From NCBI GenBank assembly GCA_963922205.1, contig CAWUHX010000083.1:930001-994000 (forward strand): a DNA stretch of 64,000 nt. The letters are read 5' to 3'. Shown piece after piece: positions 8,101-33,156 of the stretch. Each line of letters begins with the position of its first letter. Position 1 is the stretch's first letter. Made by a program: the position numbers and the translations under genes. The notes under the pieces are model-generated. The model made no database searches, was not told the DNA's origin, and saw only the letters and a program-made list of their open reading frames with translations. Source of the stretch: Romanomermis culicivorax. Lineage: Eukaryota > Nematoda > Enoplea > Mermithida > Mermithidae.

Positions 8101-11100
8101 TAACCCAGGATTTTTTCACCTTTTTCAACAGGCCAGTTGGCTCCTAGGGTCAAAATTTTACAGGCCAATCCGAATTTCAACAAGCCTGTAAACGAATGCG
8201 GTAGTAAACGACAATGTTTCTCAAACAAATTTATTCAAAAACACTCTTCAAAACTACAGTAGAAGCCCACATAACAGATCAATCATTTCTAATACGTTCA
8301 CACACATTCAAATCAATTATCAGCAGGGTTTTTTGCACAGGCCAGGTTGCAATGTGCAACTTGGGGAAAACTTTGGCTGCACAGATAAATTTTCAGTTTC
8401 TCACTCTAAAATTAATAAATTCACTTAGTTTCATCAGAAAAATAATTAAAAATTACTTTCCTTGTATTTCATCCACTTCGCGTCAGTTCCAAATTTTTAA
8501 AACGGAATTTTTTGTTGTGGAGGAAAAATCAAAAGACTGGCTAAAGTGACTTGTTCGGGGCTTTTGGAGGCCTCTAACACGTCAGAAAATTTATTTTTCA
8601 GTACATTCTTCGGCAATTATCGATGATCGATCGTGATCTTTTCACTATTTAGTTGACGATAGAGGTCAAACATTTTCCGCCATTTTCGATCTAATATACC
8701 GAGCTAGTAGTTTATCAATCATAATCATTTATAAGAGATTGTTTTCAAATGATCTAAAGCATGAAAAAGCGCTATAGGTATTTTACTTCGGACTTGAATA
8801 TAGGTAATTAATTTCGGCGCATAGCACCACCGGAAAGAAATTTTGGATTTTGATAGTTTATAACGTTGGAAAATCAATTTTTTAAATGTCTATTTCCTGT
8901 ATGAAAAGTCCAATTTTGTAGCGAATTCGATGAGTTTTCAGCCGCGCAAACTAAAATTCAAAAATTAGGCAAGCTACCAAGAACTTGGATGGATTCTTCC
9001 ACAAAAATTTTTTGAAAATAATCGACAGAAATCTTGATTTTCGTCAAATACGTCAGAAAACAATATAAGATCCAACATTTATCCATAACATACAGACGTT
9101 TAAAGGCTAAAAACATTACGCATGAGGTAGGCAGACACTTTCAAACCGCGCAACAGATATGATACCAAGAATGATTTGCAACGCGGCGCGAAGCGCCGGA
9201 AAATTTTTGGTGTTTCTCTAAACGCATAAGAAGAATGCATTTTAACCTAATCAAAAGGGTTGTTAGGCTCTCGGTTGCACTGTACAACTTGCCGAAAAAA
9301 ATTGGTTGCACAGCCCGAAATTTGGTTGTTGTGTGCAAAATAAACTGGTCATCAGCATCACGGAATAATATTTAAAAACATAAGGTATACAGATGATATA
9401 ATTCCGCGAAGCTGTGATATTTTTTGAAATTCAGAGCTGAAAACGTATCTAAATTACACAAAAATTTTTAAATCTTTACAAGCCACCTTGGCTGGTGCCG
9501 CTAGATTTTTAGGAGCCATAGCTCCTAATAACCTAAAAAACCCTGGACCCCCATCTGAGAATCTGACCTTGGGGACCTTTGATTGCGTATGTTTATTTTC
9601 TTTGTATATTAACATAAGTGTATTTGGGAGAAGTGCTATAGGAACCCACCTCCCAAATGGCTGGCCACTTGGCGACCCCCACGGGGTTATCGAATTCTAT
9701 GGCTAGCCATACGGCAGCCGTAAGGGAGCCCCTAGTCGGAAATACGGTGAAAAATGTCAATTCTTTTAATGAAAAATGGTAATTTTTGAAGAAAAACCGT
9801 CAAAAACGTAAATTTTCTCGACACTTCGCGCCATACATTTTTTACGGTTTTTTAGACAAAAATATTTTTTAGCTGTTTTTCAGACTAAATCGAATTTTTT
9901 TCCCGTTCAAGGACCCCTCCCCTAAAATTTTGGGGAACAACTGATCCCCGGCCTCAAAAAAGTCGCGCGACCCCCCCCCATACTTCAGGATCCCGTCACA
10001 TGTATGATTAGCATGAATATCCAACTTAACAGTGGTCTGAAAAATCTTATAATGCTACTCTCAATATCTCTCGAACCAGAAGAGATAGCATGTTGGGGTT
10101 CTTTTCAAATTTGTACCTCAAGAAATTTTAATGTCTTTTATTTATTGTTAGAAGCATGCATAATAACGGGGCCCCGAGGTCTGGGGCAACTTTTTTGGTG
10201 CCGGAGGTCACTGATTCGCCAAAGTTTTAGGGATGTCTCTGGACGAAAAAAATTATATTTTTTCACCAAAAAAGTCCAGAAACGGTTCAAAAAATTATTA
10301 TTGTTTAAGAAACCGTAAAAATGTATTCATGGCGCGAAGCGCCGAGAAAATTGACGTTTCTGATCATTTTTTGTTCAAAAATTAACATTTTTCATCAAAA
10401 AATGTACATTTTTCAGTATTTTTCCGAACAAAAAATATGGGATAACTACCATATGGCTAGCCATAGCCATATGACCGACGATTCAGTACTTCCCCCCATT
10501 AAATGTATGGTCAGAAGTGATTCCTATTGAATTGAAATTATATCCATGATATCCATGATGAGTCGTCACTTTTGAAATTTCTGATTTGCTGCATTCCGGA
10601 AGCTTGTGGAAAATGAAGAGGGTCATAATCATGTATAACAGACTGGAGACAGAAATCGTTTCAACATTCGCTAATGAGCTGAAATCAGATGTGCACGGCA
10701 AGAATTTTCCAGGGGGAGGGTCCCTGGACTTTTTATAGGGGGGGTGGGGGTGAGCGAGCAAAAAACAAAAAAATGTTCCGCAGGCATGTTTATCATACAA
10801 AATATGCATAAAAATCATCAAAAAAGCTGTCTTGGAAAAAGTTCAGGGGGTGTTTGACGATTTTTTTCGGTCCTCACTTTCGGTTCATATAAAGCTTTTC
10901 ATAATGTCAAGGTAAATAAAAGTGCCACAATAATTGTAAAATTGTGAACAGAAAAGTCTTTATTCTGAACACCATACTGCAAAGCATGTTAGGCTGGAAA
11001 TTTTTCAATGAAAGTATGTGATCACAGGAGACATGCCCGAGCTTCTAAAATAAACTGATATTCACAAGTCACAAACAGAAAAAATTTCCATTAATCGACA

Positions 11101-30785: not shown

Positions 30786-33156
30786 CACTGTTTTTTCCAC
30801 ATTTGCACTATAATGTGGAAAAAATATCTGGAATGTGGAAAAAATTTTTGAGGTCTTTCCACAAATGTGGAAGAAAAATTTGGGGTTTTCATATTGAAAA
30901 GATGCATTTTGCTGCATTTTAGGAGGTCCAAATCTCAAAATTTTCCGGCGCGAACTTTAATAATCATTATTATTTCTAAAGTAGCTCAGGCGCGCCTTTT
31001 ATCATGTCTACCTTCATTTATCACTCAATTTATAATAGTTTTCATCATCTTAAACGTAGTATATCTCATGTTTGAATTGGAAATCTTCAATGTTTTATCA
31101 TAATATTTAATGAAGATTCGTATTTTTTCCTTTTGAGAAAGATCAATACATCAAGCCTCTATGCTTTACAGGGTTGGCAAGGCTTTGGTTTTCTGTTTTT
31201 TTTTGGTTTTTTAAAAAAACCAAAAAATTGGAAAACCTCTGGTTTTTTGGTTTTTTTTCTAAAATCACTGGAAAAATGCTTTTTCACAATACTCGATCTT
31301 CCAGACATGTATTGGTGTCTATCTAAATCAACAAAACGATTAATTTAGTTGAACTGACTTCAATAAAAAGCAGAAAAAAGTCGTATTTTTATGATATATT
31401 TTGTACACGAAAGATGTATATAAATCAGTCGATATTTTATGTATATCCATCATGCAAGCACACATTTAGTACATCAGTCCAGTTTGCTATTATTCATACC
31501 ATATGGGATGACATCCATTGATCCATATCATCATCAAAATTTTATAAAGTACGATTGAGTTTAATATTTCGAATTTATTGTTACAGTAAGATTTTCAATT
31601 TCATTAGCTCGAAATTTCAAAATATAAAAGAGACAACAATAATAAAATTTTATTGATATCTGTTGGGCTTGATTGAACCCCATATGTTTAATATTCTCAA
31701 TTCAATTACTGCATACTATATGTTAACAAAGAGTCGCTATTAAGTAGAAAAAAATTGTACACAAAATATGTATAACTCAATCGATAGGCTACGTATCCAT
31801 TATGCAAGCGAGACTAATATATACAATAAGAGCCAGTTGCTGTAGTTATGGCTCGCAGACACAGCAATCATTTGGAAACATCTGAAATGTCTATGTGTGA
31901 CTTTCAACTGCAGTTTGTGTGTAATAATCTATCAATTTGAAACACTTCTATCAAAAACGGTATACTTAGAAGTTGTGTCATTTCAGCTTTCCTTTGCATA
32001 TTTATATATATGATGCATTGATACAATTTTTTGGTTGATTTCTTATGAGTTTTGATTACGTTATGTACATGGCGTTATTGTATATTTCCCTTTATATGTC
32101 TTTTTTCCTCTTTCTTCTTGAATTTCCCCTTTACATATCGCATGCTCTGTTCAATTTTTAATTCTCTTATGTTCTCCCCTCATCGTTTCTTTCTTGTGTG
32201 CCCGCTATTACTGTATTTTTATTGCTATAATAGCGATTTGCTATAGCATAAAGTAATGACATAAGATTAATACTTCTAGCTGCCATTTCAAGGCTCCCTA
32301 ACTAGTCTAAGATGATAGGGGGAGCTTCCAGCATTTTTTTACATAGTTATTTTGATGTTCCAAACATTCTAAAAAATTAAACCAGAAAAAAAACACTAAA
32401 AACCATAGAAAAACCAAAAAAACCATTTAAAAACTATAAAAAACCACTAAAAACCAAAAAACCAAAAACTCGAAATTTCAAAAGTTTGGTTTTTGCCAAC
32501 CCTAATGCTTTATGATGCGATTATTTCTTTGCTAACGTAAAATCAATTCAAAAGCTTCATGGAAATATCTTTCGGAAATTTATACTCTTCTTACTCATAT
32601 ATTTTCGACCAAGTTCATGAGAGTTTAGTGTTTACAAATAAATTACAGATTGTAAAATTTTTTAAGTAAAATTCTAGAAATTACGACTCTTGAACACAAA
32701 ATCGGAATCTAATTCTTGAAATAGATGTTCGGAAAATTGATTTTCCAGCATCCCAGAATGTCAATATACCCAAAAAATTTTCCGGAGCTTCGCGCCGGAA
32801 AGATTACCATCTTTTTTGGGCTTTCACTTGTCATCATAAAAGACTTGGCCATTGATTTCTTGTGTAATTCAAGTCAATAATGCTCTTGGATAGTTTGCTA
32901 GAAAATTTGTTCAACAATGCTTGTAGATTAGGCTTTTAAATCGAACATTTCAATTGTTTCTTCAATTTTAATGAATTAACTTCTCTAAAAACACCGGAAG
33001 GCTTGAAAAAGCTCAAACAGTGCGATGAAGCGTCAGTGAGCATTTTTAAGCCAAAAAACGAAAATTTTAAGACGAAAAAATTTTTTTCCACATGTGGAAA
33101 AAAAATTTGACCCCTTTCCACATTTGTGGAAGGAAGCTCGTGGAAAAAAAACAGTG
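30786..33156. mobile_element. hAT-like element with CCAC words, 2371 bp, perfect 8-bp duplication
   Basis: Left end CACTGTTTTTTCCACATTTG; right end CGTGGAAAAAAAACAGTG. CACAAAAG is present on both sides. CCACATTTGTGG-type words fill both subterminal zones. The core (from about 30900 and resuming after 32505) is homologous to 12378-13422. A second hAT element (31169-32504) is inserted in it, and the host site is itself a GTGCC-word module. Confidence 0.88.
31169..32504. mobile_element. hAT element, 1336 bp, perfect 8-bp duplication ATGCTTTA
   Basis: Begins CAGGGTTGGCAAGGCTTTGG and ends GGTTTTTGCCAACCCTA; GGTTTTT and AAAAACC repeats fill the subterminal zones. ATGCTTTA flanks both sides. The related core at 12378-13422 (near 12780) lacks it and serves as a paralogous empty site. 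No transposase coding is recognised inside. Confidence 0.92.

Follow-up and report, generated by a model that had tools for sequence, protein, structure and literature searches.

How does a group of small DNA elements keep one terminal frame while the short word repeated inside it changes from family to family? The question is raised by a window of 64,000 nucleotides of the Romanomermis culicivorax genome (930001-994000 of contig CAWUHX010000083.1, part of a 359-Mb assembly), in which an earlier note had described seven hAT-like elements, each with a word of its own in both subterminal zones. Taken as a whole, the explanation that we consider probable is that these are non-autonomous hAT elements, that the words are putative transposase sites, and that families have switched them through word replacement or through foreign ends.

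Eight framed CA..TG elements lie in the window, all on the plus strand: the seven already listed, with corrections, and one that had been overlooked. E1, the TTGCAC element, occupies 8324..9347 (flanks ATTATCAG/GTCATCAG, a target site duplication (TSD) with two mismatches); it is real as described, with a start 10 bases before the 8334 given previously, and related ends are present in several loci fetched from the genome, for example L008, L034, L048 and L063. E2, the CCGTAC element (11464..11629; TSD TCATCCTG/CCATCCAG, two mismatches), has one related end, found in L038. The overlooked element, E8 (12378..13422; exact TSD ATGCCAAC), carries GTAC on a body of the CCCC lineage. E3 is a GTAC element (17424..17865; TSD CCCGCAAG/CCTGCAAG, one mismatch), E4 a CCGCAC element (20987..21145; TSD CTGCGGTG/TTGCGGAG, two mismatches) and E6 a CTTTGTAC element (25502..26129; TSD ATTTCGAC/ATTCCGAC, one mismatch). 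E5, the GGAGCC element (22734..24159; TSD CGCTAAGC/CGCTGAGC, one mismatch), has an interior of the E1 (TTGCAC) type and a second copy in L067. The CCAC element E7 (30786..33156) does have the exact flanks reported for it (CACAAAAG), but what had been taken for a single element is a composite, split by a separate nested hAT-like element, N7 (CAGGGTTGGCAAGG...GCCAACCCTA; 31169..32504, plus strand; 1336 bp; exact TSD ATGCTTTA), which begins CAGGGTTGGCAA and differs from the E7 that it interrupts. N7 also holds TTTGGTTTTT-type repeats and has a relative, at 88.7%, inside the GTGCC element L036.

Are these hAT elements? They have short terminal inverted repeats (TIRs) with CA(G/C)NG at one end and TG at the other, except that E2 begins TAGGG, unlike the tip of the hAT frame. 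At the ends, CA[G/C]NG and a T-run are followed by the family word, repeated in both orientations at places that recur from end to end and that we call slots. Genome copies were scored for 40 first-look candidates per family (E3, 40/936; E4, 40/854; E6, 40/1749; E8, 40/6544), and in the E8 search 15 of 49 rows covered positions 1-1045, the window's own copy among them. With a caller that takes the best register among equally good tips, the 8-bp TSDs of 30 E3 copies were exact in 13, with one mismatch in 7 and with two in 4 (24/30 with at most two), and those of 12 E4 copies were exact in 4, with one mismatch in 2 and with two in 1 (7/12); each set includes the window's own copy. Among 314 framed end pairs from the window and the fetched loci, where E7 is present twice, via L031, 21 exact and 13 one-mismatch TSDs were found, where re-pairing of the flanks predicts 0.21 and 0.26. 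The 8-bp duplications that the earlier note proposed are thus found elsewhere in the genome. The elements are short, lack a transposase domain and have many copies of like length, as expected of miniature inverted-repeat transposable elements (MITEs), and no match to a profile of eight hAT dimer domains turned up in the six frames of the window; E1, E5, E7 and E8, at about 1-1.4 kb, are long by MITE standards. Because of the 8-bp TSDs of the E3 copies and the framed end pairs, we read all of them as non-autonomous hAT elements, MITEs together with relatives of up to about 1.4 kb. The genome is rich in small hAT-type elements with several copies of a family word at each end, in nearly fixed positions.

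Do the two ends of an element agree in their word? A short word is repeated in both subterminal regions, weakly so at the right end of E5 and the left end of E8. When the left and right ends of the eight elements were compared by shared canonical 6-mers, with the first 12 bp left out, the sum over own pairs was 106, a score reached by 2 of 40,320 pairings, the true one included. The words are therefore coordinated between ends, as had been proposed, and in the copies examined we saw neither of the findings named as fatal to the proposal, a lack of 8-bp TSDs or uncoordinated words. Agreement of this kind might be a by-product of symmetry if the words were merely part of long terminal inverted repeats and had nothing to do with recognition, and the two ends do carry the outer CA..T-run and the first word as inverted copies. 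However, the two ends of E7, E3 and E4 differ in slot layout, and the same layout recurs in families carrying other words. In E7, for instance, one end reads 10>,30<,50<,72>,82< and the other 12>,26>,36<,58>,66<. Since the second end type has a different layout, the agreement amounts to more than a long inverted repeat; that explanation, which we regard as very unlikely, is largely refuted.

The layout itself is regular. In one end type the word stands twice in direct orientation, about 11 and 25 bp in from the tip, and an inverted copy often comes next; at one end of five of the eight elements (E1, E2, E3, E4 and E7) the first direct word lies 10-12, and the second 24-26, from the tip. For a wider set, 221 framed ends were reduced to 136 by dropping those with the same 14 bases, and to 82 with a word of at least three letters; deduplication relied on 14 identical bases only, so that families are still present several times in what follows. 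The 4-mer after a framed T-run was repeated directly at +14/15 in 15.9% of the 82 ends, compared with 0.8% of 2380 unframed T-runs, and in inverted orientation at +23 to +26 in 23% compared with 2%. Related ends of the same layout bear out the idea of one terminal frame with different words. The position-by-position match claimed between a GTGCAC and a GTAC template holds, with a single gap, over the outermost ~35 nt and slips further in.

How does the word change within such a frame? Within a family it is uniform, whereas between related families it differs at nearly every slot while the layout and much of the spacer are retained. The GTGCC consensus aligns without gaps over 105 columns to the CCCC end of L040, with T changed to C and G to C at all five slots (TTGTGCC faces TTTCCCC at three of them, and TTCCCCC and TTTCCCT at one each), with identity in 54 of the 70 columns outside the slots. 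CCGCA and CCGT differ at 4/4 slots of one end and at the 3/3 that can be aligned at the other; between CCGCAC and CTGCAC, three of four slots are in register and the fourth is off by one. E7 was also compared with L040 over ten slots, defined from E7: word position 3 is kept in none of eight comparable slots, while the other slot positions are identical in 42/45, end columns outside the slots in 138/187 and the body in 653/753. CCAC copies have A at the variable position in 63/66 slots (53/56 without L031, the window's own copy), and CCCC ends of one type have C in 14/15; a mixed set, with 15 C, 7 T and 2 A and with CCTC-like copies in it, was assigned to the second CCCC end type. Of 48 ends found by pattern, not all of them true tips, with at least three TTCCNC slots, 28 were pure, against a mean of 1.6 and a maximum of 7 in 2000 shuffles, though tests of this kind overstate significance and independence, as copies inside a family are kin.

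A single, broadly tolerant hAT transposase could serve all families, the words varying with no change of enzyme and being matched within each element by gene conversion or drift. The common frame and spacing would suit such an enzyme, as would the interspersion and nesting of families with different words and the existence of mixed CCTC/CCAC ends. On the other hand, the Herves and Hermes transposases each bind a specific short motif, so far as the accessible parts of those reports go, and conservation within the slots, the changed base aside, is higher than around them (the 42/45 and 138/187 above, with slots taken from E7), which points to selection acting on the word. We consider the tolerant enzyme unlikely, and return to words that would each be read by a transposase of their own.

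Replacement in place is not the whole of the matter, for in four cases a body bears the ends of another lineage (E5, E8, L016/L070 and E7), and in three of these families (E5, E8 and L016/L070) remnants of another word lie inside the present ends. One body is common to E7 (CCAC), L040 (CCCC), E8 (GTAC) and L016 (CTGCA), at 74-81% in the longest aligned pieces. The GTAC end of E8 encloses a CCCC word-pair remnant (TTTCCCC..GGGGAA; 12459..12490, plus strand), the only place in the window with the pattern TTCCCC-N2-6-GGGGAA. In L016, which has an exact TSD, a CCCC end that retains its own tip lies directly inside the CTGCA end, and L070 has the same junction. Both E5 and its L067 copy hold an E1 (TTGCAC) terminus (23870..23893 in E5, minus strand), in which the CAGCAG of E1 is cut to CAG and the outer flank is alike (ATTCAAATCAAT.ATCAG); the TSD of the L067 copy, judged by eye, has two mismatches, and none turned up in a scan that allowed no more than one. 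E1 itself is adjoined in the window by a GGAGCC-family end with its subterminal stretch (CAGGATTTTTT...GGCCAGTTGGCTCCTAGGG; 8106..8323, plus strand) that is homologous to the right end of E5, and blast aligned 8125-8999 with E5 at 74%; no partner of this end at 8106 was found. The simplest reading is that E1 inserted into a GGAGCC element and that such a composite became the E5 family.

In a tree of 15 bodies CCAC occurs at two places, strongly supported branches force two changes, one CCAC place is sister to CCCC (support 100/99) and the three CCCC rows form one group. With slots masked, the left end of E7 is, over its outer 115 bp, nearer the other CCAC lineage (0.76-0.95) than CCCC (0.55-0.70), whereas its body from 200 to 605 is nearer CCCC (0.89-0.94) than the other CCAC lineage (0.75-0.82); at the right end the comparison is mixed. 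E7 thus has a CCAC end on a CCCC-type body. The proposal that words diversified jointly at both ends therefore needs amending: the ends are coordinated, but part of the diversity stems from bodies that carry ends of another lineage and not from joint divergence.

Besides the choice of register and the kinship of copies already mentioned, several observations weigh against this account. GTAC is common to E3, E6 and E8, so the eight elements amount to about six words and a word is not, as had been supposed, strictly private to its element. In three of the eight rows a foreign right end scored above the element's own (E1-E5, E8-E3 and E3-E8) and E4-E2 tied, pairs that later proved related in body or ends; the right end of E5 and the left end of E8 contain one full own word each. 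Mapping the CCGTAC slots in reverse onto CCGCAC recovered the change in only 2/4, since the CCGCAC consensus has one of its palindromic slots in degenerate form, and CpG decay might in principle account for the step from CCGCAC to CTGCAC. The three CTGCA rows do not group as a single clade in the body tree. Twenty of the 48 TTCCNC ends are mixed, and one family combines CCTC slots with a CCAC half-site, part of a palindrome, in both ends (L032, L037, L044 and L050, relatives of a mosaic end in the window at 30515..30580, minus strand, with the tip CACCG at 30580 and slots T, A, T); this family could be an intermediate between codes. Finally, among the hAT-domain places (1837 first-look candidates, 150 of them scored), the eight examined yielded no transposase with these T-run words.

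Four of those eight places had placeable ends, all with the word CGGATC, and the other four did not. The former, L051-L054, are hAT-domain elements with the TIR TAGGGATGGGC, exact 8-bp TSDs and CGGATC at both ends, up to 18+15 times in the two ends. These transposase-bearing elements with placed ends follow the same logic of one word at both ends. Directly downstream of the hAT domain in L056 and L058 we also saw dense palindromic words, ATATCCGG and GGGTACCC, which are possibly the words of other hAT groups.

What, then, would the words do? We propose that each is the subterminal binding site of its own hAT transposase, that several BED fingers of an oligomer would read it, and that the oligomer would fix the slot geometry, as in Hermes. 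Precedents are at hand in the available portions of three reports. In the Hermes octamer several BED fingers recognise short repeats in the subterminal zone; bp 11-27 of the left end contain the first two, and cleavage is severely impaired when these are shifted by one base (PMC10368747). The Herves transposase binds the short subterminal motif CG/AATTCAT, and its authors state that hAT transposons differ in binding regions, which ensure specificity (PMC3143072); and the motifs of four hAT proteins match their own subterminal regions (PMC8097297). Because of the Hermes, Herves and CGGBP/hAT precedents the words are most likely binding sites; by analogy they are likely to be transposase recognition codes, and the slots most likely the footprint of a common transpososome geometry. 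It has also to be asked whether the words might instead bind a host factor or form hairpins for replication or silencing, since many are paired as short palindromes (for example TTTCCAC-AAAT-GTGGAAA). A separate word for each family is not what a host factor would lead one to expect, and the distance of the first two words from the tip, ~11 and 25 bp, resembles that of STR1/STR2 at bp 11-27 of the Hermes left end in the part of that report available (PMC10368747), and so we find this explanation most improbable.

If transposase binding is what the words serve, families may change transposase by concerted word replacement within a common end, and also by gaining foreign ends, through insertion in another element with loss of the inner ends or through recombination between relatives. 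Families with different words may also coexist without mutual interference, as the earlier note supposed. We would go further only tentatively. It is plausible, if short of probable, that the genome houses a hAT community whose end scaffolds, two or three in number, are related and whose words differ by one or a few bases and fill up to ten slots per element, with bodies that repeatedly switch code via foreign ends and keep remnants of the former one. The series would comprise TTCCAC, TTCCCC, TTCCTC and TTCCGC (the last on a more distant scaffold); CCGCAC, CCGTAC and CTGCAC; and GTAC and GTGCC. If this is true, code switching would be a recurrent route by which non-autonomous elements change the transposase that they require.

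The window holds further repeats. An end of the abundant GTGCC family lies at 27357..27482 (plus strand), with further ends near 28347, 33174, 34245-34426 and up to 538, and relatives of E1, E5 and GTGCC occur in the fetched loci. Three copies of G-rich repeats (GGGGGGG...AAATCCGAAATTT) at 33980-34868 are kin to the inside of L069. At 37841-38142 and 44918-44981 there are CGCGGCGCC-rich repeats with TGTCATACTTC flanks and 64-nt arms that are 97% complementary, in surroundings that are AT-rich by contrast; inverted arms at 40504-41252 are built from AGCTGAGCTGCAGCTTAAC repeats in both orientations; a long TTTA-type microsatellite spans 35344-36072, and a degenerate array of AATCAACCAACC-type units 18142-18910. 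Exon matches were obtained for a helix-loop-helix protein (its hairy-orange match being below the cut-off), an amino-acid permease and an AMP-binding enzyme, matches that suggest an animal.

Two questions give these elements a wider meaning: how a transposon stays mobile while it changes a recognition word that is present at many sites, and by what route non-autonomous elements come by another enzyme once theirs dies. Possible steps may be readable in this one genome, in like scaffolds with one-base word differences, in mixed ends and in a former word within new ends; where the same body stands behind different words, one sees how such a parasite may exchange the lock to which its mobilising enzyme holds the key. 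With the transposases recovered, the series would serve as a ready set for decoding BED-finger specificity.

The phenomenon is known in kind. What the earlier note observed is real, and its order goes further than was seen there; our literature searches listed no slot-by-slot word series combined with remnants of other words in present ends. The comparisons that follow hold for the accessible text of each source. Hermes resembles the present elements in its several short words per end, the first two fixed near the tip (bp 11-27), in its 8-bp target and in the unequal arrangement of left and right ends, but it is one autonomous element with one word (AAGT/AAGC), whereas here many families and words share layouts and are known without their transposase (PMC10368747). 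Herves is likewise a single element, and no family series with a slot-by-slot word swap was noted there (PMC3143072). The DNA motifs of hAT-derived domains in the CGGBP/hAT work are similarly diverse, although that study is centred on proteins and end architecture or switching was not noted in it (PMC8097297). Coral CMITEs are MITE families with conserved interiors and diverged termini, in which a new element arose via insertion of another, but they are piggyBac-like with TTAA targets, and a repeated word, slots and word remnants were not noted (PMC2872659). Maize Ac/Ds, finally, shares with our elements the heterogeneity of non-autonomous members that have short TIRs and some subterminal repeats in common; there, however, a single recognition system is at work and not many words (PMC3260210).

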